Shown piece by piece: positions 7,707 through 22,229 of a stretch of 22,229 nt of DNA; within the stretch, counting starts at the first letter, position 1, and each line of letters starts with the position of its first letter. Below the pieces are notes generated by a model. The model was not told the DNA's origin. It saw only the letters and a program-made list of their open reading frames with translations, and ran no database searches. The translations under genes and the position numbers were made by a program. The DNA comes from a virus. The stretch spans positions 1 to 22,229 of IMG/VR virus record IMGVR_UViG_3300035698_028319; one strand, given 5' to 3'.

Positions 7707-7741
7707 TGCCTGAAAACTATGTACCAGCCTCAATGAGAGTC
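7707..7741 (+). repeat. Left terminal inverted repeat of the IS3-family element
   Basis: It begins TGCCTGAAAACTATGTACCA and ends AATGAGAGTC. With two small gaps it pairs with the reverse complement of 8972-9007: shared blocks TGCC, AAAACT, CCAG and AATGAGAGTC. The orfB stop lies inside this repeat. Confidence 0.8.
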
Positions 7742-8601
7742 GGTGGTGTGAGGGCTGATTCTATCACTGGGCGTAACGGAGTGCAGGGGAGGGGCGCAGC
7801 CCCGAGCCGGAACGCAGGCACGCCCAGTGAGGCGGCGAATCGAGCTGGGGGTTGATACGACAGTGACGAATGTGGACGCCGGTGGTTGTAGTGGTTCTTC
7901 CACCAGGCGCTGACCTGCCTTGCTTCGGCCAAGTCGGCGAACGATTCCTGGTTGAGTACTTCATCGCGGAACCGGCTGTTAAAACTTTCCGCATACCCGT
8001 TTTGCCAAGGTGCACCGGGTTCGATGTACAGCGTGTTGATATCCATCTGTCCCAGGAACACCTGGATCGCCTGGGCAATAAACTCAGGCCCGTTGTCCGA
8101 GCGGATGTGGCCGGGTGTGCCTCGGATCATCATCAATTCGCAGAGCACATCCAGAACATCTTGAGCCTTGAACGAACGACGCACCTCTACCGCCAAGCCT
8201 TCCCGCGTAAACTCATCCTCGATCATCAGCCAACGCAGCGCCCGGCCATGTTCATCTCGGTCGTGGATGAAGTCCCAGCACCACACCTCGTTGATCGACT
8301 CGGCCTTCTGTCGCATGATCCCGTTCCCGCTGACGCCAAGACGCCGCTTCTTTACTTGTTTTATAGGCACTTTGTAGCCATGCTCCCGCCACAGCCGATA
8401 CACGCGGTCACGCCCAACGGCGAACCCATCTTCTACCAACAACCCATGGATCATGCGGTAGCCATACCGAGGGTGCTGACAAACCAACGCTTCGATCGCT
8501 TCAAGCAACACGCCTTGATCCTCCTTGATCCGACGTTGGTAGCGCTGCGTGCTTCGCGGCTGATCCAGTGCCCGACACGTCCGACGTTCGCTGGTGTTCA
8601 T
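7717..8601 (-). CDS. IS3-family transposase OrfB (DDE integrase domain)
   Basis: The catalytic half of the transposase starts at an ATG at 8601, but homologous sequence (SPTRRREAVVHVRRQ) extends upstream in the same frame to about 8652, so the working protein is probably the OrfAB fusion made by -1 frameshifting. In order there is the HTH_21-type linker (EALVCQHPRYGYRMIHGLL) and the rve integrase core with the three acidic residues in WCWDFIHD, RSDNGPEF and NGYAESFNSRFRDE. The last two catalytic residues have 35 residues between them, the DD(35)E spacing. The HYNHRRPHSSLSYQPPARFA C-terminus is standard for the family, followed by an unusual 30-residue tail reading into the left terminal repeat. 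Confidence 0.92.
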   Translation of the reverse strand: MNTSERRTCRALDQPRSTQRYQRRIKEDQGVLLEAIEALVCQHPRYGYRMIHGLLVEDGFAVGRDRVYRLWREHGYKVPIKQVKKRRLGVSGNGIMRQKAESINEVWCWDFIHDRDEHGRALRWLMIEDEFTREGLAVEVRRSFKAQDVLDVLCELMMIRGTPGHIRSDNGPEFIAQAIQVFLGQMDINTLYIEPGAPWQNGYAESFNSRFRDEVLNQESFADLAEARQVSAWWKNHYNHRRPHSSLSYQPPARFAASLGVPAFRLGAAPLPCTPLRPVIESALTPPTLIEAGT

Positions 8602-8622
8602 CTGACGACGAACATGAACGAC

Positions 8623-8634
8623 CGCCTCTCGGCG
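8623..8634 (-). other. GNRA-type hairpin downstream of the IS3 slippery site
   Basis: On the minus-strand RNA CGCC-GAGA-GGCG forms a 4-bp GC stem capped by a GNRA tetraloop. It starts 17 bases after the slippery heptamer, further than the 5-9 bases usual for a stimulatory structure, so a role in frameshifting is possible but unproven. Confidence 0.35.
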
Positions 8635-8645
8635 ACGTGTCGGGC

Positions 8646-8939
8646 TTACTCGTTTCCCAGATGCTCCAACGCCGACTTGAGGATGTCCTTATCCAGATGC
8701 GCATCGGCCAGCAGCTTCTTGAGCCGAGCGTTTTCCTGTTCAAGTTCCTTGAGTCGCTTGGCTTCGCTGGCCTTCATCCCACCGTACTGTTGACGCCAAC
8801 GATGATACGTGGCCTCGCTGACCACCAGGGCCTGCAACACCCGCCCCAGCGGCTGACCTGTATTCAGCAGACGGTCTGCCTCCTTGAGTTTTTCGACGAT
8901 CTGTTGAGGGTTGTGACGACGACGCTTCTTCTGTGACAT
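8646..8939 (-). CDS. IS3-family transposase OrfA (HTH_Tnp_1)
   Basis: A 97-aa DNA-binding protein of the IS3 OrfA type. The helix-turn-helix lies in NPQQIVEKLKEADRLL to ATYHRWRQQYGGM, and a leucine-zipper-like coiled coil follows (SEAKRLKELEQENARLKKLLAD), which mediates transposase dimerisation. I chose the ATG at 8939 because AAGGAG sits six bases upstream; an in-frame start at 8957 lacks this. The gene ends at TAA 8646 right after GGA-AAC-GAG, where ribosomes can slip into the orfB frame. OrfA alone normally binds the IS ends and represses transposition in this family. Confidence 0.92.
   Translation of the reverse strand: MSQKKRRRHNPQQIVEKLKEADRLLNTGQPLGRVLQALVVSEATYHRWRQQYGGMKASEAKRLKELEQENARLKKLLADAHLDKDILKSALEHLGNE
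8652..8658 (-). promoter_or_regulatory. Slippery heptamer G-GGA-AAC for -1 frameshifting (orfA to orfB)
   Basis: In the orfA frame the codons are CTG GGA AAC GAG TAA. G-GGA-AAC fits X-XXY-YYZ exactly. A slip of -1 continues as CGA GTA AGC CCG, giving R-V-S-P-T-R-R, the normal start of the OrfB domain, which itself has no good start codon before 8601. It lies one sense codon before the orfA stop. Confidence 0.65.
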
Positions 8940-8971
8940 CCAAGTCTCCTTGCCCAATCAAGGGCAGTAGA

Positions 8972-10857: not shown

Positions 10858-12162
10858 TCAAATAAGGTCAAGCCTGAGCGTCTTGGCGATGGCATTAACT
10901 TGATCCGGGAGAACCTTAGCCTCGTCTGCAAACTCGCGCCAACGATTCACTGCATCGGTTACTTCACGGGCAATTGCCTCGGCCCGCCCGCGCTTCAGAG
11001 AGATCGTTTTCGCTGCGGCCTTAAAATCATCGAGGGTAAATCCGTCACGCTTATTGTTAAGGCTCATTTGGTGTTGGGATGTCCATGCCCCATCGGGGTT
11101 ATAGCTATAGATCACATCAAAAGCCGGTGCGAGCGACCAACGACCTGATTTGTCCATCAAGAATGCGATGTTCTTCACATGATCGTCCTGGTTCCTTGCG
11201 ATGATGTTGAACACCATGCGGCGGAACTGCTCCTCGGTCTCATCCATCGACAGATCCAGGCGTCGAATAACCAGGAGGGCCTGCTCATACGAGTTGCCAC
11301 CAGCGTTGTTGAAGTCTAAGTGTGCCATCGCACCCAGCGACTGCATGTGCAGTTTCTCGCCATCGGCAAGGCGATCAAAGCGGCGTGTCATGAAGTGTCG
11401 GCGGTCATTCTCTTCGAACAGTCGGCAATCAGACATGCGGATGCCAGCCGCTCTGGCCATCAGCGAGTAGGCGTATTCGATTGCGCCGTATCCCTTCGGA
11501 TCAGCGAGTTCCTTGTCGCGGTTGTCGGAAATACCATCGAACTTTAGCAGCCAATATTCGAATCCTGCCGGTGCCTTGACTTGTCCGCTGAGTACCGCAT
11601 TGGTCTTGGGGTTCCAGGCGATGGCCGCCTTTGCGCGGGCACCGCCGGCCGATGCGCCCACACGCAGGATCTCGCGTAACGCATGCTCCTTGACTTCATC
11701 GGCGAACGAAGCCTGAAGGCTCTCGCGACTTTTGAGTACATCCGACGCGAGTTCAACCAGAGCATCAACTTGTACCGGCATCGATTGATCTGCTTGTGGT
11801 CCTTTTGCTGGCTGAAACTCAAGTGCCCCCATGCCACGGGTCCCGGTATAGCACAGACGTTCGACTGCATCGATTTCTCCAGGAAGCTTGCCTTGGGTAG
11901 CGAGCCAAGCATCGATGACCGCGTTACCGAACTTGTCTGGCAAGGCGTCCGCCAAGAGCCCCGGTAGGCCGTTGAATGACTTCATGGATAAATCGGGGAA
12001 CCGATAGATACGATCTTCAAGCGGCATCATCAGCGGGGCGATCTCAATCCCACTTTTCTGGAAAGCGTCGGTGTATTCGAACGACGCGATTTCCTTCGGA
12101 CCCTCTACAGAGACGGCACCAATCATACGGCCCCACAGTCGGACTTCAGCGATAGTGCTCAT
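10858..12162 (-). CDS. hipA: HipA-like type II toxin, serine/threonine kinase
   Basis: The 434-aa protein is the normal HipA length. The N-terminal domain shows FNGLPGLLADALPDKFGN (63-80), the HipA N1 hallmark. The kinase region contains the Ser/Gly-rich loop VGASAGGARAK (168-178), the ATP-binding Lys207 in WLLKFDG, the catalytic loop NQDDHVKN (324-331, Asp327 and Asn331), and the metal-binding FDV with Asp349 (LAPAFDV). All key residues are present, so the kinase is probably active. E. coli HipA phosphorylates glutamyl-tRNA synthetase and causes growth arrest; the target here is unknown. It is translationally coupled to hipB through an ATGA overlap (12162-12159). It sits beside a prophage and may travel with it. 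Confidence 0.93.
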   Translation of the reverse strand: MSTIAEVRLWGRMIGAVSVEGPKEIASFEYTDAFQKSGIEIAPLMMPLEDRIYRFPDLSMKSFNGLPGLLADALPDKFGNAVIDAWLATQGKLPGEIDAVERLCYTGTRGMGALEFQPAKGPQADQSMPVQVDALVELASDVLKSRESLQASFADEVKEHALREILRVGASAGGARAKAAIAWNPKTNAVLSGQVKAPAGFEYWLLKFDGISDNRDKELADPKGYGAIEYAYSLMARAAGIRMSDCRLFEENDRRHFMTRRFDRLADGEKLHMQSLGAMAHLDFNNAGGNSYEQALLVIRRLDLSMDETEEQFRRMVFNIIARNQDDHVKNIAFLMDKSGRWSLAPAFDVIYSYNPDGAWTSQHQMSLNNKRDGFTLDDFKAAAKTISLKRGRAEAIAREVTDAVNRWREFADEAKVLPDQVNAIAKTLRLDLI

Positions 12163-12518
12163 TTCTCACTCCCTTCCTCGTCCCACGTCCATTCGTGGCC
12201 GTCCTCAGGTTGCTTGGACCGGGGCGCGGCTCTTTTTCTCTGTTTGCCCTGGGTCTTGAGTTGTTCGATTGGGCTTGGCGTTGGTGGCGGGATGAACGCA
12301 TCCAGGTTGTCTAAGAGGTCAAGCGCCCGGATGATCTTGATCAGATTCGTCAGTTGTGTTGATTCGCCGCCTTCGAGCCTAAGCAGTGTGCGTTTCGATA
12401 CACCCGCCTCACGGGCTAGTTCAGCCTGTGTGAGGTTGCGTTCCAGTCGATACCGGGCGAGCCGGTTGCCGATCTCGGCCAATACTGCTGGGTCCGTCAT
12501 GTGATAGTCCGTATTCAT
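12159..12518 (-). CDS. hipB: HipB-like antitoxin, XRE-family helix-turn-helix
   Basis: The 119-aa protein has an XRE/Cro DNA-binding domain at about residues 14-72 (IGNRLARYRLERNLTQAELA, then REAGVSKRTLLRLEGGESTQ). A long basic and proline-rich tail (PPPTPSPIEQLK, KQRKRAAPRSKQPEDG) ends acidic. In E. coli HipB binds HipA, neutralises it and represses the operon; the tail here is longer and different. The antitoxin is first and the toxin second, as usual. Two starts are possible: ATG 12518 (chosen, 11 bases after the likely transcript start) or ATG 12500. Neither has a Shine-Dalgarno site, so near-leaderless translation is likely. Confidence 0.88.
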   Translation of the reverse strand: MNTDYHMTDPAVLAEIGNRLARYRLERNLTQAELAREAGVSKRTLLRLEGGESTQLTNLIKIIRALDLLDNLDAFIPPPTPSPIEQLKTQGKQRKRAAPRSKQPEDGHEWTWDEEGSEK

Positions 12519-12528
12519 AAGATGCCAG

Positions 12529-12575
12529 TTCTGTCAATTATATCGTCAAATAGACCACAAAGCGACAGAATTGTC
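12529..12575 (-). promoter_or_regulatory. Candidate hipBA promoter with inverted-repeat operator
   Basis: On the minus strand a perfect TATAAT (12542-12537) lies 18 bases before the hipB ATG. It is flanked by TTCTGTC (12529-12535) and GACAGAA (12564-12570), which form 7-bp inverted arms, and by GACA-GAAT-TGTC (12564-12575), a smaller palindrome. Antitoxin binding to such TGTC/GACA half-sites around the -10 would give autoregulation. No good -35 box is visible. Confidence 0.5.
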
Positions 12576-12799
12576 ACCTTATTTTAGAGAATTATCTCGA
12601 TAAAATCCATCATAAACCCTGTAAAACGCTCTGCTGAGCCTAAAAGTGAGTCAATCGCCTTAGGAGTTGGATTATCACCCACTACCCGACCAAGGTCTCC
12701 TTGGGCCTGAAATAGTACTCCACCACCCGAACAGATGATCCTCTGCCAGGGGCGGCGGCCGCTTGAAGTTCGATCGCCAGCGTCAGCCGACGAGAGTCA
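12576..12799. other. Spacer between hipB and the last prophage gene
   Basis: No convincing gene is present. The left part is AT-rich. A perfect 6-bp palindrome CCAAGG-TCT-CCTTGG lies at 12690-12704, too short and without a U run to call a terminator. A minus-strand frame ending at 12682 is open but mostly overlaps the Cys-pair gene in another frame. Confidence 0.45.
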
Positions 12800-13213
12800 T
12801 TAGGTCGTCCCGTTCGCTCGGCCCTCCGCGTCCGGCGCGCTGGTGGTGGCTGCATCATCATCATGTTTGTACGGCACCAGCTTGTTGAGTGCGGCCTGGC
12901 GCTGTTTACAACCGCCACAAGGCTTGATGCCCATGGCCTTGGTTGCCTTGGCGATGGTGTCGCCGAGGCCTCGGCTCCGTCGGGGCCTGGGGGCGACATA
13001 GGGTTTACGTTGCGGCTTCGCTTCGTCGGTTGCCTTTGGTTTATTGATCCATTCGACGCCGTGCGGGCAGTCGAAGTCGGGGTCGTCATCGGGCAGCGAA
13101 AACGATTGGGCCAGCTGCTCCCGAAATCGTCTTGATGACCGGCATACCTTGCATGCGCCGCGTTCCCTTCTGCTTGAGCAATGGATGGTGTCTGTGAATA
13201 GCGGCAGCTTCAT
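12800..13213 (-). CDS. Small phage protein with paired cysteines (GIKPCGGC motif)
   Basis: The 137-aa protein has six cysteines: C12, C21, C24 and C49 at the N-terminus (HC...ACKVC...DCPHG), which could bind one zinc, and C99/C102 in GLGDTIAKATKAMGIKPCGG. That second block, ending ALNKLVPY, is one I recall from small proteins at the end of tail modules in phages of several phyla (from memory). I chose the ATG at 13213 because it follows the upstream stop by one base and has GGGGGA as ribosome site; a longer frame from 13288 overlaps that gene. The linker (PKATDEAKPQRKPYVAPRP) is disordered and basic. The function is unknown. Confidence 0.75.
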   Translation of the reverse strand: MKLPLFTDTIHCSSRRERGACKVCRSSRRFREQLAQSFSLPDDDPDFDCPHGVEWINKPKATDEAKPQRKPYVAPRPRRSRGLGDTIAKATKAMGIKPCGGCKQRQAALNKLVPYKHDDDAATTSAPDAEGRANGTT

Positions 13214-13214
13214 G

Positions 13215-15191
13215 TCATCCCCCGAACACAATGGTGATGCTTGGGCAATCAAGCCCGCAATCCCCAACGCACCCTTCCAGTACGGCATCCGTGAGCGTGA
13301 CGCTGCCGGAGAGTTCGCCGGTCTCAGGATCGCAACTCAGATTGGCTTCTTCCGGCGTCCACCCCACGTTGTTTGTTCCGTCATGTATGACGGTGAATAC
13401 CCCTTCTTTGTAATAGACGAATACATAATGATAGGTAGTCGAAAATGGACCTACGATCGCCTTGCGCCATGCCCAGCAGCATTCGTAAAAGGAGCATAGG
13501 CCCGGATCGCTGGACGTATAGGTCCCAGACGGAGAATGGGGACCGCCGTGGAACGTACAATCTCCGTCCCATGTTCCGTTCAACGTGACGGTGCAATCCG
13601 GTTGCTCGCCGCCGCAGGATTCGCACGGGTTGGCAGGGCCGCACGCCGGATCGTCGCAGTCCTCCCGTTCCTCGCCGATGCTCGGATGGTCTTCCTGCGG
13701 GCAGTTCTCCGCTTCATAGACCGTGTAGCACTCCCCGCCGACATCCACGACCTTGCCGACGACCGCTGACAGGTCATCCCGCGTGAACAGATTCACCAGG
13801 CCGTCGCACCGCTCCAGGCGATAACAGGCAGAGCATTCCGAGCACCCGCGCGCGCCGAAGTTAGAGATCACGCCGGTGAGCATCGGACCGGGTGGTGCCT
13901 CCGCGATGACGATGTCCGGCGAGATGACAACGCACACGAGCGTGCCGGTGGCGTTCATTACCAGCAGGACCGTCCCCGCCGGGTAGCTGCCGGTATCGAC
14001 CCACTGCCCGTACCGTCCCCCGCCGCATTTATTGACAGGTGAGTAGCGTCTTTTCTTCGGCCCCGGCGGCGGTGGCGGCGGCCTGGGGTCTGGCCCAGGC
14101 CCCGGGCCCGGCCCGGGCCCCGGCGGGAAGGGAGGGTATGGCGGGTCGGGGTCCCAAGGGGGCGGGTCACCGCCGGTCCCATCGCAATCGGCGAAGGACC
14201 CGCACGATGCCGCCGCATTCCCGATCGAATCTTCCCACCCCGCCGCGTGGGGCGGAACCAGCTTGACGGTCCCGCCCCCGGCTCCCACGATGACCCGGCC
14301 TAAGGGTCTGGTATGCCCGGTCGGCGTCGATCCCGCTTGCAACACCGTCCCGATGTCCGAACACGACCAATCATTGTTGACCGTGACCGTCGATGTTGCT
14401 TCACCGAATGCGTCCAGCCACCCACTTGGGATGCTGGCGGTGCCCCGGAACAGCTCCGTGGATACGCTCATCCACAACGTCGGGTGCTTGCACGGAACGT
14501 CCGATCCATCGACGGGATCGTGGTCCCCGTCCGCACCGCTTGAGTAGGGGAACAGCCCCCCGAAGATGACCACCTCAACCTCGGACGGGGTAAAGGCGAC
14601 CTGGATCGTGAAGCCGGAGGTGTACGAATCGGTCCAGGTCGGGATCGGTCCTACCTGGGTCTGGACTACCAAATGCTCCGTATAGATGTCCGCATCGCAG
14701 TCGCAGTTGTATTGCCACCAGCAACCCTGCCCCACGTATCCGCCGTAGAGATACAGCAGCTTGTTCTGGAAACCTTCCTCGCCGGGCGACGGCTTGCGTT
14801 GGCGCAGCAGCCATTTGTCGTTCAGGTGGATCGAATACTCACCGAGCCTCACCCTTGCGCCGGTGGACGACTCGTCCTCCCCGTCTTCGATGCCGATCAG
14901 GGGCATGCAGCCCTTGAACCCGATGTTGTCGATTTCCAGGTAGAGGCACTTCAAGGCCCGATCGGCGACGGTCCAGAACGTCGCGTTGGGCGGATCGTTG
15001 ACCCCCGGATTGGCCGTATGCGCGGAATGACAGACGTAGTAGACCGCGGGCGACCCGCTGAAGACCAGGTCGCCCACGTCGTAGGAATTGCCACCGGCCC
15101 ACGGGCCACGGTTGACCTTCCAATCGGTGAAGATCGGCAGGCCCATGCCGGTACAGTCACAGCAGCAGCGGTTGCTCGCGGTGCTGGACAT
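13215..15191 (-). CDS. Large cysteine-rich prophage virion/appendage protein
   Basis: The 658-aa protein is in the tail module. In order it shows an N-terminal CCCDC cluster (9-13), then a module at about 24-77 (W...PWAGGNSYDVGDLVFSG...YYVCHSAHT...FWTVAD). The latter resembles carbohydrate-binding modules of the CBM5/12 chitin-binding type. A beta-rich middle follows, then a Pro/Gly hinge at 342-378 (repeated GPGPGP, PPPPPP). Next are a Cys cluster CSECSACYRLERC (450-462), another Cys stretch (512-533), and a C-terminal domain ending CVGDCGLDC (641-649). By my count it has 35 cysteines. This layout suits a host-surface-binding fibre or tip protein. The ATG shares one base with the stop of the upstream gene. 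No exact family was recognised. Confidence 0.7.
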   Translation of the reverse strand: MSSTASNRCCCDCTGMGLPIFTDWKVNRGPWAGGNSYDVGDLVFSGSPAVYYVCHSAHTANPGVNDPPNATFWTVADRALKCLYLEIDNIGFKGCMPLIGIEDGEDESSTGARVRLGEYSIHLNDKWLLRQRKPSPGEEGFQNKLLYLYGGYVGQGCWWQYNCDCDADIYTEHLVVQTQVGPIPTWTDSYTSGFTIQVAFTPSEVEVVIFGGLFPYSSGADGDHDPVDGSDVPCKHPTLWMSVSTELFRGTASIPSGWLDAFGEATSTVTVNNDWSCSDIGTVLQAGSTPTGHTRPLGRVIVGAGGGTVKLVPPHAAGWEDSIGNAAASCGSFADCDGTGGDPPPWDPDPPYPPFPPGPGPGPGPGPDPRPPPPPPGPKKRRYSPVNKCGGGRYGQWVDTGSYPAGTVLLVMNATGTLVCVVISPDIVIAEAPPGPMLTGVISNFGARGCSECSACYRLERCDGLVNLFTRDDLSAVVGKVVDVGGECYTVYEAENCPQEDHPSIGEEREDCDDPACGPANPCESCGGEQPDCTVTLNGTWDGDCTFHGGPHSPSGTYTSSDPGLCSFYECCWAWRKAIVGPFSTTYHYVFVYYKEGVFTVIHDGTNNVGWTPEEANLSCDPETGELSGSVTLTDAVLEGCVGDCGLDCPSITIVFGG

Positions 15192-16141
15192 CAGATACAG
15201 GTCCCGTCCACGCCATTGAGGTAGAAGAAGGTGGCGCGAATCGGCGGCGAGCCGGGCGGACTTCCGGGAAGACCTCCGGGGGCGGGTTCATCGCGCAACC
15301 AGACCACCACGTCGTCGGGCGCGGGCTGGATGGTTAAACCTTCGTTGAGTACATCGACATCGACGCCGTTACCCTGCACCCCTGTGGGACCGTTGCCGGC
15401 CTCGGCGGTGTTGATCGCGTGGGTGTTGGGGTCGAGCGAATCGCCGTAGCGGCCTCCGGGCACGACGGTCCAGTCCGTGCCGTCGTAGGTGACCTCGTCG
15501 AAGCCGTAGTACCAGATGTTGCCGGACTGATCGGCGCTGCCGTAGATGCGGGCCCAGTAGCCGTCGCGGGTGGCCGGACCCAGTCGAACAATCGCCCAGC
15601 ACTCACCGGGAGAAGTGGCCACCTCCTCACGCCAGATGACTTGAGCTGCGCCACCCGCTTTCAGTTCCAGTACCGTGCTGTCGGCGTCCACCACGTCGGC
15701 CTGCGTTCCCATGTTCGCGTTGTTGGGCACACGCAGACGCACGACGCACACGCCATCGATATAAGCCCGACCGATCGCGCCGTCGGCCAGTGGTTCGGCG
15801 AGGATCACGAATCGGCCTGTATGCGTCGGCACGACCGGCACCACACACGACAGCGCGACCTGGCGTTTGAACTCCTCCTCGTGCCCGCCGGATTCACTGT
15901 CGCCGGGTAGGATGATCGGGGTATCGATCCCCAGCACCGCGAACCGCTCCTGGTCGGCACCGGAGGCATTCTTGATGTAGACGATGCCCGTGGCGTTCGC
16001 ACCGGTAGTGGCCGGTTTGCTGGATGCTACGTTCGCCTGGCTCTCGTAGTGCGCACGCGTGACGTCGATGATCGCATTCCAGTCCGAAGCTGGGATGCGC
16101 ATTGGCTGACCGGATTGAACGTGCCGGAGGTTCATTCGCAT
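15191..16141 (-). CDS. Prophage virion protein of unknown function (316 aa)
   Basis: I do not recognise a named family. The protein begins MNLRHVQSGQPMRIPASDWN, then has beta-rich segments (TGIVYIKNASGADQERFAVLGI; GRFVILAEPLADGAIGRAYI; VCVVRLRVPN) and a Gly/Pro-rich C-terminal region (APGGLPGSPPGSPP) before a final strand. The style is that of a structural protein in which modules display sugar- or surface-binding ends. It is translationally coupled with the cysteine-rich protein downstream (TGATG overlap at 15193-15189), so they probably form one structure. ATGs at 16141 and 16135 both follow a GGGGG run; the second has the better spacing. The gene before it in the operon is separated by the inserted GIY-YIG gene. 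Confidence 0.65.
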   Translation of the reverse strand: MRMNLRHVQSGQPMRIPASDWNAIIDVTRAHYESQANVASSKPATTGANATGIVYIKNASGADQERFAVLGIDTPIILPGDSESGGHEEEFKRQVALSCVVPVVPTHTGRFVILAEPLADGAIGRAYIDGVCVVRLRVPNNANMGTQADVVDADSTVLELKAGGAAQVIWREEVATSPGECWAIVRLGPATRDGYWARIYGSADQSGNIWYYGFDEVTYDGTDWTVVPGGRYGDSLDPNTHAINTAEAGNGPTGVQGNGVDVDVLNEGLTIQPAPDDVVVWLRDEPAPGGLPGSPPGSPPIRATFFYLNGVDGTCI

Positions 16142-16203
16142 ACCCCCGCTTTGAGCGTTACGCTAGGTTCACATTGCTCAGGAGAATCAATCGGGAACCA
16201 CTT

Positions 16204-16944
16204 ATGGCCAAAGCACCCAAACTCTCGCCGTCTGTCACCCGCCACCTGGGCCACTACGTCTACCTCTACGTGCGGCCCGACACCGAAGAAGTCTTTTATG
16301 TGGGTAAAGGCAAGGGCAACCGCGCCCTGGCTCATATAGAGGGCAAGGGCAACACACCGCACGATGAGGTGATACGTGAGCTTCACGATCTTGGTCTGAA
16401 GCCCCGGGTTGAGTTGCTGATCCATGGTTTGAAGACGGAAGCCGAAGCCTTCGCCGTGGAGATGGCGGCTATTGACCTGATCGGGTTGGAGCGGCTTTCG
16501 AACCGGGTATACGGCCACAATAAATCTCGACTTGGCAGGATGAGCATTGATCAGGTACGGGCGTTGTATGACCGTAAGCCGGTCAAGATCACGGAACCCG
16601 TCGTGATCATCCGGGTCGCCAGGCGTTTCCACTACGGCATCGATCCCGTCGCGCTCTACGATGCCACGCGTTCGGCCTGGGTGGTGGGTGAGCGCCGCGA
16701 GGGAGCTGAGTATGCGCTTGCGGTGTATGAGAACATCGTGCGGGAGGTCTATAGGATCACCCACTGGCTGCCGTCCGGATCGACGTTCCGCGCCGACAGA
16801 CCGACCCGTGGCCCTGCCGAGGAGCGGTGGGAGTTCGTCGGTGTGGTTGCCGAGGAGAAGGTGCGTAAAAAGTACCTGAACCGGTCGGTAGCAAAACACA
16901 TCCCAAAGCACAGCCAGAACCCGATCCTGTACGTGAATTGTTGA
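16204..16944 (+). CDS. GIY-YIG nuclease (LEM-3-like) inserted antisense in the tail operon
   Basis: The 246-aa protein has the GIY-YIG core in its LEM-3-like form: GHYVYLYVRP (16-25), FYVGKGKGNRALAH (31-44, with the Tyr and Arg/His typical of the catalytic face), and Glu86 in AEAFAVEMAAIDLIG, followed by LSNRVYG (98-104). The C-terminal half (about 130-246) has ALYDATRSAWVVGERREGAE, then EVYRITHW and SQNPILYVNC, a second domain I recall following this nuclease type, possibly PUA-like. It is the only plus-strand gene in the phage block, ending eight bases before the convergent neighbour. I chose the ATG at 16204; the frame extends to 16102 but that part overlaps the divergent virion gene. It is probably a homing endonuclease or moron. 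Confidence 0.82.
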   Translation: MAKAPKLSPSVTRHLGHYVYLYVRPDTEEVFYVGKGKGNRALAHIEGKGNTPHDEVIRELHDLGLKPRVELLIHGLKTEAEAFAVEMAAIDLIGLERLSNRVYGHNKSRLGRMSIDQVRALYDRKPVKITEPVVIIRVARRFHYGIDPVALYDATRSAWVVGERREGAEYALAVYENIVREVYRITHWLPSGSTFRADRPTRGPAEERWEFVGVVAEEKVRKKYLNRSVAKHIPKHSQNPILYVNC

Positions 16945-16952
16945 GGGATTTG

Positions 16953-17744
16953 TCACGTGCCGATCCCCAATGAACTAAAACTTCCCTCGCGGTAGACACG
17001 CTCGACGTATGCGGCCACAGGTTTGCGGATCAGCATCTTGGCGGTCGCGTCCTCAGCGGCCTGGTATCTGACCCAGAGGTATTCCCAGCCTTTCTTCTCG
17101 ATGCCCACGATCGAGCCGATGGACAGCCCCGTGACATTGGGTGAGCCCGCGAAGGCGAAGCTGATCTCCCAGGGGTCGTCGCCACGCTGAGTGCCCGCTG
17201 CGCCGAGGAACAGACATTCGCCCGCCGCTAAGCCCTTGAATGAGGCATCATTCACTCGCCCCGTCAATCCGAAGAGCGTCGCTTTGTATGCGGTGTTGAC
17301 CGCACTCGGGGACAGGTAGTGAGTCTCGGAGAAGGTGTAGACCGGCACGGTGATGTCCACACCCCCCACAGAGTCCTCGGTCACACCAATCGCGCCGTCG
17401 AAGATGGGTGCGGCGGGGATGTCGGGGGAGGCGTAGCTCGCCACGGTGGCCAAGGACTGCGTGATGTGTTGCGTGCCCCCGCGTGTCTCGAAGGCGAAGC
17501 TGGACTCGCCGGCCTGGGGTGGGTTCGCTGCGGAGGGCGCGTATCTGACCGTCCCCAACCAGATCAGGTCGTGGATCTCTTCAACCTGCGCATCACTTCG
17601 CACCAGGCCGTTATGTGTGGACGGTGATGCGATCAGTAATTCAGTCCGCGCATCCACATCGTCGGCGAGGTCGCGGATGATGTAAGTGATCTCTGCCGAA
17701 TCATCGGAGAGTATGCGGCCGTATTTTTCCTCAACGATGGGCAT
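16953..17744 (-). CDS. Prophage distal tail / baseplate-associated protein (inferred)
   Basis: The 263-aa protein starts at MPIVEEKYGRILSDDSAEIT. It is followed by a predicted all-beta body: ITYIIRDLADDVDARTELL and later FETRGGTQHITQSLATVASY, VDITVPVYTFSETHYLSP and WEISFAFAGSPNVTGL, then KGWEYLWVRY. The last blocks look like a beta-sandwich with a conserved GWEYLW turn, as in other small tail proteins placed after the tape measure. The name rests on position: genes just after the tape measure normally encode the distal tail and baseplate hub. The start ATG at 17744 is seven bases after the stop of the tape measure gene; a longer frame from 17792 overlaps it and lacks support. Confidence 0.65.
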   Translation of the reverse strand: MPIVEEKYGRILSDDSAEITYIIRDLADDVDARTELLIASPSTHNGLVRSDAQVEEIHDLIWLGTVRYAPSAANPPQAGESSFAFETRGGTQHITQSLATVASYASPDIPAAPIFDGAIGVTEDSVGGVDITVPVYTFSETHYLSPSAVNTAYKATLFGLTGRVNDASFKGLAAGECLFLGAAGTQRGDDPWEISFAFAGSPNVTGLSIGSIVGIEKKGWEYLWVRYQAAEDATAKMLIRKPVAAYVERVYREGSFSSLGIGT

Positions 17745-17751
17745 AGGATTC

Positions 17752-19737
17752 TCAGGCGAACGCGATCGCGTTGTCGTTGATCGCGCGTTCAATGTGTTTG
17801 GTGTTACGGGCGGTGTCTTCGGTGGCCTTGGCGGTGCGCTCGGCGACGCCGCTGTCGGTCATCAAGCCTTGGATCGCGGCGGCGTTGAACGTGCCCCGAA
17901 CACCGATCCGCTCGGCTTCGCGCTCGAGCATGTCACTGAGACCAGACAGATCAGGTGCCCCCGGAATTGGGCTATCGCTACCCACGCCAATTGCGGCACG
18001 GTTGGACTTGGCTTCTGCGATCGCCGCCTCCCACTCCCGCCGCGCGGCGATCAGGGCCTGTTCGGCCTCCAGTTCGGCCTGCGCACGCTCGCTCGCCTGG
18101 CGGGTCTGTTCGTCCTCGTACTTTTGACCGAGGACCCCGAGGGTCTGATCATGGAGGGAGGCGGACCGGTTACGGCGGTTCTGACGGCGCAGGTCGGCCC
18201 CGATCACCGCCTCGCCGGTGTTCTGGTCGATCTGGGCTAGACGTTGTGCCAAGGCCCGGTCGATCTCGGCGTTGGCTTTGCCGGTGTCGAAGCTATCGGT
18301 GAACAGGCCTTTTATAGTGTTCCAGGTCTTGGCGGCCAGGGCCTTCATCTGCTCCCACGAGCCTGTGAAGATGTTGACGAACCCGTACCACGCCTTGGCC
18401 AGGAAGGCGGTAGTTTCGATCCAACCGACCTCCAGGCCGTGCCAGATGGTCTCCAACGTGGCGAGTGCCCCGACGAACGCGCCCACGAGCACGTCCATAA
18501 TGAACCCCCGGAATCTAAGCCAGACACCCTCGATGAAGCTGACACCCTTGATCCACTCCATCTTTAGGGTTAGCCAAAGGATCCTCGCCGCCAGTCCGAT
18601 GTCGCCAGCGGCCAACGCGTCCGCGATGCCCTGGTAGGCCTGCAACGCCGTGTCCTTCAACTCGCCGAAACGATCGCCCAACCACGCCAGCGCCGCACCC
18701 CCGATCCCGGAGGTTTTCACGAGATAAGCCCCGAGCACACCCAATCCCGCGATCACCAGCCCGATCGGCGAGACCAGGAACCCGATCGCGGTCGCGACGA
18801 GTCCGATGCCCGCTGCGGTCACACCCAGGATGGTCGCCAGGCCGCCGAGGACCGCACCCAGTCCCGAGATCAATGTGCCCAATACGATCAGCGCCACACC
18901 GGCAGCCACAACGATCGCAGCGATCTTCGCCACCTGGACGATCAGACCCCGGTTCTGTTTGACCCATTCACTGACTGTTATGACCACGCGGGTGATCGTG
19001 TCGGCCATACTTTGAAGCACAGGGGCCAGAGCCGCACCGATGTTGAAGACGCCCATCTTCACAACCTTCCACAACTGATCGAGCGCATCGGTGAAGTCTT
19101 CCGCCGCCTTGGCGTCTTCGCCCGACATGGTCAGCCCCAAACGGTGCGCCTCGGCCTGCAACGCCTCGATGCCCGCGCTGCCGGCCGCGAACATCGGCAG
19201 CAGGTTTGTACCAGTGCGTCCAAATAGCGACATCGCGATCGCCGCTCGCTTCGTGGGGTCCTCGACCTGACCGATCCGATCCGCTAACAGCTTGAATTGG
19301 TCCTCGGGTGACAGGCCGTCCAGATCCTTGAACGTCAGGCTCAGATCGTTCAACGAATCCACTTGTGTGGACAGACCCCGCCCCGCGTCGTAGATCGACC
19401 GCTGCATCTTGCGGAAGGCCATCTCGAGTGACTCAAACTCGGTGCCGGTCTGGCTGGCCACGAACCGCAGTTCACTGAGTGTTTCGACCGACAGGCCCGT
19501 GCGCTTGGCCATCTTGGCGACCTGGTCGCCGTAACTACTGAACAATTTGGCAGAGGCCGCCAGAGGCGCAAGCACCGCCGCGCCGATGCCGACAGCCATC
19601 AAGCCTAGATTGCGGATCGACGCGCCGAAGGCCTTGAGCTTCCGCTCCGCACGACGAAGCCCGCGCACGAGCTGGCTGTCGTCGGCGAACAACTCGACGA
19701 ACGCACGCCCGGCTCGGATACCTTGTGTGGATGCCAT
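17752..19737 (-). CDS. Phage tail tape measure protein
   Basis: The 661-aa protein opens with GIRAGRAFVELFADDSQLVR, a common tape-measure N-terminus (TIGR01760-like), then a long helical part (SYGDQVAKMAKRTGLSVETL). A strongly hydrophobic Gly/Ala/Val-rich stretch lies at about 265-340 (AAIVVAAGVALIVLGTLISG onward), as expected for the part that enters the host membrane. The C-terminal third is a Gln/Glu/Ala/Arg-rich coiled coil (ERAQAELEAEQALIAARREW). Tape measure length sets tail length; at the usual 0.15 nm per residue this implies a tail near 100 nm, so a siphovirus. It follows the chaperone-like pair by three bases and precedes the baseplate-like gene. ATG at 19737 with GAGA upstream. Confidence 0.93.
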   Translation of the reverse strand: MASTQGIRAGRAFVELFADDSQLVRGLRRAERKLKAFGASIRNLGLMAVGIGAAVLAPLAASAKLFSSYGDQVAKMAKRTGLSVETLSELRFVASQTGTEFESLEMAFRKMQRSIYDAGRGLSTQVDSLNDLSLTFKDLDGLSPEDQFKLLADRIGQVEDPTKRAAIAMSLFGRTGTNLLPMFAAGSAGIEALQAEAHRLGLTMSGEDAKAAEDFTDALDQLWKVVKMGVFNIGAALAPVLQSMADTITRVVITVSEWVKQNRGLIVQVAKIAAIVVAAGVALIVLGTLISGLGAVLGGLATILGVTAAGIGLVATAIGFLVSPIGLVIAGLGVLGAYLVKTSGIGGAALAWLGDRFGELKDTALQAYQGIADALAAGDIGLAARILWLTLKMEWIKGVSFIEGVWLRFRGFIMDVLVGAFVGALATLETIWHGLEVGWIETTAFLAKAWYGFVNIFTGSWEQMKALAAKTWNTIKGLFTDSFDTGKANAEIDRALAQRLAQIDQNTGEAVIGADLRRQNRRNRSASLHDQTLGVLGQKYEDEQTRQASERAQAELEAEQALIAARREWEAAIAEAKSNRAAIGVGSDSPIPGAPDLSGLSDMLEREAERIGVRGTFNAAAIQGLMTDSGVAERTAKATEDTARNTKHIERAINDNAIAFA

Positions 19738-19740
19738 GAG

Positions 19741-19983
19741 TCAATTCTCTGAACGTCGTCGTTGCGGTCCTTCAAGCGCCTCGCGCAATAACCTCAGGTC
19801 CTGCTTGCTGGCGGTCTGCTTGGATGACGCGTCCCACCTTCGCTGACGTGCATAAGGATCAAAGTCTGCCGGCTTGAACGGCCGGTGCTTCTTCGGGTCG
19901 CGGTTGGCGTTGGCGATCAAAGCGCAGACCAGCGAGGTATGCGCCCAGCGCTCACGTCCCAGGCCCTCAGCCATCCACAACAA
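19741..19983 (-). CDS. Second tail-assembly-chaperone-like ORF (possible 'T' extension)
   Basis: An 80-aa frame lies directly before the tape measure: LWMAEGLGRERWAHTSLVCA, then IANANRDPKKHRPFKPADFD, then a basic end. It has no ATG at a good position; the first start-like codon is TTG at 19983 (or CTG overlapping the previous stop), with no clear ribosome site. The same frame stays open upstream to 20184 inside the previous gene in the -1 register. That is the arrangement of the lambda G/GT tail assembly chaperones, where -1 frameshifting makes a long form. No X-XXY-YYZ heptamer was found, so coupled reinitiation is an equal possibility. The function is inferred from synteny. Confidence 0.65.
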   Translation of the reverse strand: MLWMAEGLGRERWAHTSLVCALIANANRDPKKHRPFKPADFDPYARQRRWDASSKQTASKQDLRLLREALEGPQRRRSEN

Positions 19984-19994
19984 CTGCCGCAGTG

Positions 19995-20474
19995 TCAGTC
20001 GTCGGAGTCCACGGGGTCCGAGACCGAGGCTTCCCGCGATGCGCCAGACATCGCGCCAGCGATCGTCTGCTCCACATTGATCCCGTCGATCTTGGTTTCG
20101 ATCGCGGTCACCGCCGCGTCGATCATGGCCATCTGTTTCGCGACCGCCTTGGCCCTGTCGTTGCGGCCGCGTGACCGGAAAAAATCAATGAGTTCCTCAT
20201 AGAACGCCTTCTGGGCTGCGAGCAGCGTCTGCCCGTCAAAACTGTTCCGCACGTCGGCCTCGGTGACCTTGTGCGTGACGAACTGGCCTTCGAGCATGGC
20301 GCAGAGCACTTCGCCCAGAAGCATCTCGTCCGTGCCGAGCCGTGTGAGTAACGGCGGATCGCCCGCTTCCGGCTGGAGCAGGTCCACGTTCAGCTTGGCT
20401 TTGACGGCCATGGCGGTGCCGAGGTTGAGCGTGAGTGACCAGGTCCGACTGGATGCGTCATTAAAAGTCTTCAT
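19995..20474 (-). CDS. Tail-assembly-chaperone-like protein (lambda G position)
   Basis: The 159-aa protein starts MKTFNDASSRTWSLTLNLGT. A small beta start is followed by helices (TRLGTDEMLLGEVLCAMLEG, LAAQKAFYEELIDFFRSRGR, then AKAVAKQMAMIDAAVTAIET) and an acidic tail ending DPVDSDD. It lies between the tail tube gene and the tape measure, where siphophages encode the chaperone that coats the tape measure during tail assembly. I chose the ATG at 20474 because GGAGGTG lies a few bases upstream and it overlaps the tail-tube stop (TAATG); a six-residue extension to 20492 would remove that ribosome site. No sequence family name could be assigned. Confidence 0.7.
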   Translation of the reverse strand: MKTFNDASSRTWSLTLNLGTAMAVKAKLNVDLLQPEAGDPPLLTRLGTDEMLLGEVLCAMLEGQFVTHKVTEADVRNSFDGQTLLAAQKAFYEELIDFFRSRGRNDRAKAVAKQMAMIDAAVTAIETKIDGINVEQTIAGAMSGASREASVSDPVDSDD

Positions 20475-20911
20475 TACGCCACCTCCACCCATTCCTCGAA
20501 CTTGGCGAGCTTGGCTGTCACGGAGACGGTCACGCCTTCTTCGAGTGGTTCGTTGCGACTGAAGTTGGTGATACTGAAGTCGCCTCGCGGTCCTTCAGTA
20601 TCAGACGCCGACTTGTCGCCGGTGAGGACGGCCAAGGCGATCGTGGCCGAGGTCAGGAACGCGGTCTTGATCGCGTCGAAGCCGGTGTCGCCGGGCTTCC
20701 AGAGCATCTCGAACTCGGCGGTGCACTCGCGCAGGGTCGGGGCGGTGGCGCGCCAGCCCTGGTTGGCGCGGGTGGTCACATCCGCCTCGCCTGCTTCCAG
20801 ATTCAGCGTCACATCCTTGACGTTGTCCATCTCGGTGAGACTGGCGAGCGCGGTGCCCGTCGGGCCCTGGTAGATCTTGGCGTTCATGCCTAATAGGAAT
20901 TCTTGAGGCAT
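20474..20911 (-). CDS. Phage major tail (tube) protein
   Basis: The 145-aa protein is all-beta in style. The start is MPQEFLLGMNAKIYQGPTGT, then NVKDVTLNLEAGEADVTTRA, EFEMLWKPGDTGFDAIKTAF, and ITNFSRNEPLEEGVTVSVTA near the end. The 'D-T-L-x-x-x-E-A-D-V-T-T-R' and 'E-x-G-V-T-x-S-V-T-x-K' strands match the tail-tube fold of long-tailed phages. Tube subunits stack as hexamer rings around the tape measure. The start codon at 20911 has a strong ribosome site (AAGGAG) nine bases upstream, as expected for an abundant protein. The next gene overlaps its stop. Confidence 0.82.
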   Translation of the reverse strand: MPQEFLLGMNAKIYQGPTGTALASLTEMDNVKDVTLNLEAGEADVTTRANQGWRATAPTLRECTAEFEMLWKPGDTGFDAIKTAFLTSATIALAVLTGDKSASDTEGPRGDFSITNFSRNEPLEEGVTVSVTAKLAKFEEWVEVA

Positions 20912-20938
20912 GGGTATGTCTCCTTACTTATTCCGGGG

Positions 20939-21361
20939 TTATTTCCGGGGAATGCTGTCACGCCACATGGCGGGCAGCTTGGGTTGTTCTTTCTGGAAGG
21001 CCGGTCCCATGAAGGGGCGTGGTTTGTATCTGGCGCGACGTTTGCCGACCTTCGCGGGGCCGCCGTGCTCGAGCAGGGCCGGCGCTTTGCCACGGCCGTT
21101 CTGGCTGAGCCGCACGGGTCCGATGACCACACTTCTGGCGGTGGGTTCGTAGCCGAAGAAGATGAACTTCTTCAGCAGGCCGATGTGGCTACTGGGCGGT
21201 GCGCCGGGCGCACTGATCCGCTTACGTTTGCGTATGCTCGATCGGGCGGTACGCCTGACGAACGCGCCGAACTTCGAGAGCACCCGACGCGTCCCAACAT
21301 CGACCTTGTCGCGCACCGCCTGCTTATCGAAGAACTGGTTAATGATCTCGAAGCGGATCAT
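20939..21361 (-). CDS. HK97-gp10-like head-tail / tail-completion protein
   Basis: The 140-aa basic protein has a helical beginning (INQFFDKQAVRDKVDVGTRR, then VLSKFGAFVRRTARSSIRKR) and a beta part (GLLKKFIFFGYEPTARSVVI). It ends in ALLEHGGPAKVGKRRARYKP followed by RPFMGPAFQKEQPKLPAMWR. 'LEHGG ... RPFMGPA' is the usual C-terminal signature of HK97 gp10-like proteins, which help join head and tail or complete the tail. It lies immediately before the tail tube gene, the standard place. It is translationally coupled to the upstream gene by an ATGA overlap (21361-21358), with GGTGGG as a possible ribosome site. Confidence 0.8.
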   Translation of the reverse strand: MIRFEIINQFFDKQAVRDKVDVGTRRVLSKFGAFVRRTARSSIRKRKRISAPGAPPSSHIGLLKKFIFFGYEPTARSVVIGPVRLSQNGRGKAPALLEHGGPAKVGKRRARYKPRPFMGPAFQKEQPKLPAMWRDSIPRK

Positions 21362-22083
21362 TGGCCCACCCCCGTCATGGCGAGGCGACCGTAGCTTTCG
21401 CTGGCGGCGATCACGGTGGCAGCTTCATAGTGTGCCTGGATCCGCTCGGGTGTCAGGTCGTGGGCATAGAACGCCGCGCGGGTCAGGGTGCCGCTGAAGG
21501 TGGAGCTGGAACCTGCCCAGCCAAGCATGAAGGTGTAGTTCGAGCCCGCGCGTGTGATCGGGTCCGACGCAGACCCGACCAGCTCGCCATCGACCCACAA
21601 CTCGCGGAGTTCGTTGTGGATTGAACGTGTAACCACGTGGTGCAGACCGGTTGGGCTGACGACCGAACTGCTGATGACGTTGGAGGATTCGAACTGATCA
21701 AATTCAGAGAGATAGAACCGACGTACACCGATAATCGTCCGAGTAATGAGTAGTATCCCGTGAGCCTGTGAGTCATCGACGATGGCCATGACCATCTCCA
21801 GCGAGGCGACCTGCGCGGGGTCTTTGACGAAGATCTCCGTTGCGTAGGGGTAGACGAGATTAGGTATGGGCACGAGGGTCTTGCCGTTCACACCGTCGTA
21901 GGTGATGCCCAGGGCGCTTTCGTTGACGAACTCCGGGATAGGCACCGAATAGGTCAGGCCTGACGAGCCGTGGCTGCCGTTCACCGCGTTGGGCGACGAG
22001 TCCACGGCGAGACCGCCCGATGATTCCTCAAGCTTGAGGTATCGGGTGGGTGTGTCTGCGAGAACAGTGTCGTCGTAGGGCAT
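21358..22083 (-). CDS. LamG/concanavalin-like virion protein
   Basis: The 241-aa protein starts MPYDDTVLADTPTRYLKLEE and reads as one LamG-type jellyroll: L-E-E-S-S-G-G-x-A-x-D-S-S, then GITYDGVNGKTLVPIPNL, GLHHVVTRSIHNELRELWVD, VDGELVGS, and LTRAAFYAHDLTPERIQAHY, the closing strand and helix of the fold. A lectin-like fold inside the head-tail part of a phage operon suggests a capsid or tail decoration that holds carbohydrate. The ATG at 22083 was chosen because the frame upstream (to 22191) is the end of the previous gene read in another frame; no ribosome site is seen. Confidence 0.75.
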   Translation of the reverse strand: MPYDDTVLADTPTRYLKLEESSGGLAVDSSPNAVNGSHGSSGLTYSVPIPEFVNESALGITYDGVNGKTLVPIPNLVYPYATEIFVKDPAQVASLEMVMAIVDDSQAHGILLITRTIIGVRRFYLSEFDQFESSNVISSSVVSPTGLHHVVTRSIHNELRELWVDGELVGSASDPITRAGSNYTFMLGWAGSSSTFSGTLTRAAFYAHDLTPERIQAHYEAATVIAASESYGRLAMTGVGQ

Positions 22084-22091
22084 AGCGGTGC

Positions 22092-22229
22092 TTAGGCGTC
22101 GGTGGTTTCGAAGTAGACAAGCCAGCCGCCGACCGCGACGGCGGACGCCAGGTGCAGCGTCAACGCCTCGCCGGGTTCGGTCAGCAGCCACGCCGTGGCC
22201 GGGTCGGTGGGCGCGTTGATCACGAACCC
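22092..22229 (-). CDS. C-terminal end of a further prophage gene (partial)
   Basis: The last 45 codons of a gene enter from the right edge, reading GFVINAPTDPATAWLLTEPG, then LTLHLASAVAVGGWLVYFET, and ending at TAA 22094-22092. It lies 8 bp before the LamG virion gene on the same strand. The short beta-rich end with TEPGEALTL resembles the tail of small virion proteins, but no family is claimed. Confidence 0.6.
   Translation of the reverse strand, partial: GFVINAPTDPATAWLLTEPGEALTLHLASAVAVGGWLVYFETTDA

Follow-up and report, generated by a model that had tools for sequence, protein, structure and literature searches.

A probable PD-T4-3/CMoRE-family nuclease as polymorphic cargo in the tail module of putative planctomycete phages

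The tail module and its antisense gene

The window, that is, the whole stretch of DNA analysed (22,229 bases, IMG/VR record IMGVR_UViG_3300035698_028319), contains in its right part a minus-strand module that is assigned to the phage tail by matches to a tape measure family (PHROG, E 2e-42) and to a tail-tube family (Pfam, E 5e-9). The open reading frames of the left part we take to be bacterial (Lon, FolE2 and a band-7-like protein), and what is presumably an IS3-like transposase pair (7717–8957, minus strand) is situated between these bacterial-type genes and the phage module. The latter is adjoined by a gene pair (10858–12518, minus strand) coding for a helix-turn-helix protein and for a product that we assume to be HipA-like; PADLOC matches to this pair were weak. 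Because no integrase was found in the window, a temperate lifestyle rests on the bacterial-type genes that the record also contains and on homologous modules in bacterial genome contigs. Planctomycete groups are named in the titles of 68 of the 80 genome contigs retrieved as relatives, and planctomycete-like bacteria are the putative hosts of the virus. The features around the nuclease gene are as follows.

15191–16141, minus strand: downstream tail-operon gene (316 aa), on the 3′ side of the junction (open reading frame list and search for relatives)
16132–16956, minus strand: passenger open reading frame (274 aa), antisense to the nuclease gene (no family; codon positions)
16142–16952, no strand: insert of 811 bp between both tail genes, absent from five of the six closest relatives (junction comparison)
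16204–16944, plus strand: gene for a GIY-YIG nuclease (246 aa), probably of the PD-T4-3/CMoRE family (Pfam, PHROG, PADLOC, PDB and Foldseek)
16204–16497, plus strand: N-terminal GIY-YIG domain, about residues 1–98 (Y18, Y20, Y32, R40 and E86; 12-residue loop, 45–56)
16591–16941, plus strand: C-terminal domain, residues 130–246, counterpart of the 5hmC-sensing domain of CMoRE (PDB alignment and structure comparison)
16953–17792, minus strand: upstream tail-operon gene (279 aa), on the 5′ side of the junction (open reading frame list and search for relatives)
17752–19737, minus strand: tape measure protein (PHROG)

As described in the first-pass annotation, the nuclease gene is the only one on the plus strand in the phage part, since every other open reading frame accepted as a gene from 12159 to 22191 is on the minus strand, and it lies between two tail genes without overlapping either, with gaps of 62 bp on the side of the downstream gene and 8 bp on that of the upstream gene. 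It starts with ATG, although the same frame is open further upstream from a TTG at 16102. Comparison of the window copy with its homologues from a divergent tail module (locus L083) and from a chromosome showed differences at the third position in 55–62 % of the codons, at the first in 24–30 % and at the second in 15–24 %, the pattern of a selected protein; the plus strand is thus the coding one. The antisense frame of 274 aa was rejected as an operon gene, because it belongs to no family in Pfam or PHROG and its wobble position coincides with the conserved first position of the nuclease codons. The insert contains only the nuclease gene and this passenger frame, with no partner gene, and the same is true of the insert in L083. 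A scan for sigma-70-like promoters gave none for the nuclease gene, against 0.7 expected, a consensus that says little for planctomycetes, and a terminator scan found nothing.

Occupancy of the junction in related modules

A search with the upstream flanking gene gave 464 relatives in IMG/VR and 171 in genome contigs, of which we fetched the best 80 each. Of the 161 loci, the window included, 156 allowed the junction to be called, counting all of L007, L008 and L009, which have one junction sequence, and both L068 and L069, which have one insert. It spans at most 50 bp in 139 loci, 51–299 bp in five and at least 300 bp in 12. The same tail module occurs three times in each of two planctomycete chromosomes, CP054186.1 (L129, L135 and L161) and CP087563.1 (L145, L162 and L166).

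Among the six closest relatives (L006–L011), with both flanks 81–92 % identical, five are empty and one, L010, carries a NUMOD4-HNH gene. The empty site that the first-pass annotation had suggested looking for therefore exists, the nuclease being present or absent at a single junction, and the alternative of a fixed part of the module does not hold, since most close relatives are empty there. In the empty junction of L011 the two tail genes overlap by ATGA, which contains both the stop of the one and the start of the next, whereas in the window this overlap is split by 811 bp with both tail frames undamaged. The nuclease gene thus looks like an acquired extra and not a fixed part of the virus.

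Presence or absence at one exact junction is consistent with a free-standing homing endonuclease, which would cut the empty tail junctions of co-infecting phages and be copied into them with the flanking tail genes. Three other observations point the same way: L083 has at the same junction, and in the same orientation, a nuclease that is 64.3 % identical, versus 60.2 % and 49.7 % for its flanks; the gene in L010 (6265–6822), whose start codon shares ATGA with the stop codon of the upstream gene, matches a PADLOC 'homing endonuclease' (E 6e-20); and two relatives from jumbo phages are annotated as putative homing nucleases. However, the junction also takes genes that do not code for nucleases, either in sense, for glycosyltransferases or a pyruvyl transferase (L022, L024, L089 and L096), or in antisense, for GNAT (L068 and L069) and DinB-like (L079) proteins, besides inserts to which no family was assigned (L104 and L147). 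The neighbouring tape measure junction likewise contains antisense genes for thioesterase and DNA-alkylation-repair proteins (L138, L147 and L140). Since non-nuclease genes, in several cases antisense, are thus found at both junctions, homing is not needed to explain the insert. The sense cargo might represent surface-modifying phage genes, and antisense single-gene cargo is seemingly a habit of these tail operons. The nuclease junction is not supported as a strict hotspot: excluding the window, inserts of at least 300 bp occupy it in 11 of 155 loci, versus five of 155 for the tape measure junction (Fisher P 0.20), and it is therefore permissive, not proven special.

Similarity to PD-T4-3/CMoRE enzymes

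The only Pfam match of the protein was a LEM-3-like GIY-YIG domain (35.9 bits, cut-off 27), and an NCBIfam search assigned no family. The designation LEM-3-type, made in the first-pass annotation, is therefore correct as a domain label but does not describe the whole protein. LEM-3 carries LEM and ankyrin domains; the window protein shares the GIY-YIG domain with LEM-3 and Ankle1, but its second domain corresponds to that of CMoRE and not to ankyrin or LEM. Pfam also detected none of the homing-type DNA-binding motifs (NUMOD, IENR and similar), in contrast to the NUMOD4 of the L010 gene, although other binding domains are possible.

Nearly the entire protein could be aligned to PD-T4-3, both with the PADLOC model (residues 6–243, E 1.1e-32) and with the solved proteins 9u7u (E 2.2e-22) and 9u75 (E 7e-20; residues 10–243 for both). 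A Foldseek search with the predicted structure (pLDDT 77.7, pTM 0.59) returned PD-T4-3 chains as its top four matches (E 2.5e-18 to 2.4e-17) and no other match below E 0.001. A VIA comparison of the whole chain with PD-T4-3 gave Z values of 15.3–15.9 with an rmsd of about 17, probably because the two domains are differently placed. These results indicate that the 246-aa protein is a full-length, two-domain relative of PD-T4-3/CMoRE, with 31–35 % identity to the characterised type. Additionally, PHROG 5356, labelled as of 'unknown function', was the sole PHROG at E ≤1e-5 for the eight family members tested (those from the window, L083, a planctomycete chromosome, an E. coli prophage, a phage-plasmid, a Rhodococcus plasmid and two jumbo phages), each of which also matches PADLOC PD-T4-3, suggesting a function for this PHROG.

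PD-T4-3 has been renamed CMoRE, a single-protein type IV restriction enzyme against phage DNA with 5hmC or 5ghmC that has an N-terminal nuclease and a C-terminal sensor; in assays, its cleavage depended on 5hmC or 5ghmC, and it protected against T2, T4 and T6 by about 5 logs (PMC12923530). A tetrameric state and cleavage limited to such DNA are further traits of this family. The closest known systems are the enzymes from E. coli ECOR68, O157:H7 and APEC O1 (PDB 9U75, 9U7U, 9U7Z and 9U8D). They share with the window protein the single-gene organization, an N-terminal GIY-YIG domain with an extra tyrosine, the catalytic R/E pair and the C-terminal domain; the window protein differs in its sequence (about 31–35 % identity), its separate clade and its location in a planctomycete phage tail junction. 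Family alignments retain Y18, Y20, Y32, G34, K35, R40, H44, E86 and N100. Mapping by hand equates Y18, Y20 and Y32, which form a GIYxY-YIG motif with a third tyrosine, with Y17, Y19 and Y31 of CMoRE. The catalytic residues R40 and E86, whose absence would have spoken against a nuclease of this type, are invariant. Y122 aligns with Y127 of CMoRE, whose main chain contacts 5hmC.

The first-pass annotation had considered residues 130–246 a conserved second domain with no function to name. Conserved it is, but a putative role can now be proposed: the matches to 9u7u and 9u75 extend over both domains and the C-terminus of CMoRE is the sensing part, so that this region is the counterpart of the modification sensor. 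Modelled alone (pLDDT 79.8, pTM 0.77), it gave Z values of 14.6–15.6 against PD-T4-3, with an rmsd of 3.6–3.8. After PD-T4-3, most of the 47 other structural matches were YTH, EVE or ASCH proteins, including the VcaM4I sensor and human THYN1, with Z values of only 3.6–5.0; some of these were untitled entries that we presume to belong to these families. Two DrmAB chains were also among the weak matches, and the sensor domain showed no link to EVE or YTH at the sequence level. This weakly suggests, as a lead, that the CMoRE-type sensor may be PUA-superfamily-like (YTH/EVE), against the description of the sensor in PMC12923530, which calls its fold distinct, reports no homologues and likens its 5hmC binding to that of the SRA domain. 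According to the authors of VcaM4I, EVE, YTH and SRA belong to the PUA superfamily (PMC7897488). VcaM4I and other modification-dependent nucleases of this superfamily (EVE-HNH and SRA fusions) share the sensor-plus-nuclease layout with the window protein, although they have another nuclease fold and no sequence link to it, and VcaM4I has the reverse domain order.

Phylogeny, mobility and proposed role

The nuclease as a single query found no relative in IMG/VR, while a two-sequence alignment returned the contig of L083 together with relatives of about 30 % identity, and an eight-sequence alignment further ones of 37 % identity and less. The family tree (21 rows, leaving out L246, with a stop in its translation) separates two clades (support 100/99). 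Clade A contains the window copy, L083, planctomycete chromosomal copies, a Rhodococcus plasmid copy and, on a long branch, an E. coli phage-plasmid copy; clade B contains the E. coli CMoRE-type and jumbo-phage copies, with members in phages Moabite and OBP. The relatives from Pseudomonas phage OBP (L005) and Klebsiella phage N1M2 are annotated as 'putative homing nuclease', and that of OBP matches PADLOC PD-T4-3 with E 2e-62.

The window copy is sister (97/95) not to that of L083 but to a chromosomal copy, 65 % identical, beside tRNA-Trp and near a tuf-like gene, and no such tail module was found within the 19 kb read there. This indicates that the gene moves, and argues against homing at this junction. 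The tree speaks against the copies in the window and in L083 having simply been inherited vertically at one site, although transfer from phage to chromosome would rescue this scenario; the data fit either two gains at one junction or a single gain followed by transfer to the chromosome and by many losses. PD-T4-3 was present in eight of 392 genomes from a sample of the planctomycete phylum and, in a near-identity search, in 833 of 5426 E. coli genomes (838 records with a match). Two E. coli contexts out of these 838 were read, and in both the gene is beside pinE and tail-fibre genes and, as in the window, on the strand opposite to the prophage tail genes.

All ten rows of clade A have a 12-residue loop with no run of three or more acidic residues (longest run in the window protein, residues 45–56, two), whereas the loop has 16–33 residues in intact rows of clade B, with an acidic run in E. 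coli CMoRE; several clade B rows, including both jumbo-phage copies, also lack a run of three. The partial sequence L258, placed in B by default, was set aside from this comparison. An acidic autoinhibitory loop is described for most CMoRE members, without being strictly defining, and replacing four acidic loop residues of the E. coli enzyme with alanine led to activity on ordinary DNA and to toxicity (PMC12923530). Since the enzyme altered in this way cuts ordinary DNA, clade A must either be controlled in another way or have a lower specificity, and its separate position, lack of an acidic loop and 31–35 % identity imply that substrate or regulation may differ.

We favour, with a probability of about 0.7, a phage-borne defence gene ('moron') of the PD-T4-3/CMoRE family. 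Of the three options in the first-pass annotation, defence or exclusion is preferred because the whole protein, beyond its GIY-YIG part, falls in this family; spreading of the tail module by homing becomes a weaker rival. The defence reading is based here on two-domain homology, intact catalytic residues, insertion at a tail-gene junction left empty in close relatives, and a history of mobility. By analogy with the 31–35 % identical E. coli enzymes, the C-terminal domain would bind modified bases (5hmC-like) in the DNA of incoming rival phages, which the N-terminal GIY-YIG domain would cut, sparing the unmodified DNA of host and prophage. The antisense placement would allow the gene to be transcribed in the lysogen, from its own promoter, at times when the tail operon is off. 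Both the modified DNA of rival planctomycete phages and expression in the lysogen are putative here. In E. coli, 12 of 21 selected defence systems were in intact prophages (Vassallo et al., PMC9519451).

Homing is unlikely given the PD-T4-3-like character of the whole protein and the requirement of characterised CMoREs for two modified cytosines with no strict sequence (PMC12923530). We consider very unlikely that the nuclease is used by the replicating phage, and not by the lysogen, to exclude co-infecting phages; the relatives in Moabite and OBP and a published virus-derived modification-dependent nuclease, HHPV4I (PMC10101028), are compatible with such a use, but a gene antisense to the tail operon has no obvious co-expression with it and both E. 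coli copies read adjoin prophage genes. Highly improbable is a dual purpose for the loop-less clade, combining modification-sensing restriction with the cutting of unmodified empty junctions of related phages, which would spread the gene and exclude rivals. Least credible is an inactive or neutral passenger, in spite of the many unrelated inserts tolerated at this junction, in view of the retained catalytic residues and the codon-position pattern against two homologues.

Among the papers listed in our literature searches, none dealt with this gene in planctomycete phages. Under the favoured reading, what is probably a type IV defence nuclease would be a polymorphic cargo gene, with an exact empty site, in phages of a barely studied phylum; the strongest new points are this site, the gene's history of movement and the clade without the loop. 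That clade would be a natural group of CMoREs devoid of the loop to which restraint of the enzyme has been attributed, and a PUA-like fold, if confirmed, would place the CMoRE sensor with the EVE, YTH and SRA sensors instead of making it a new fold.
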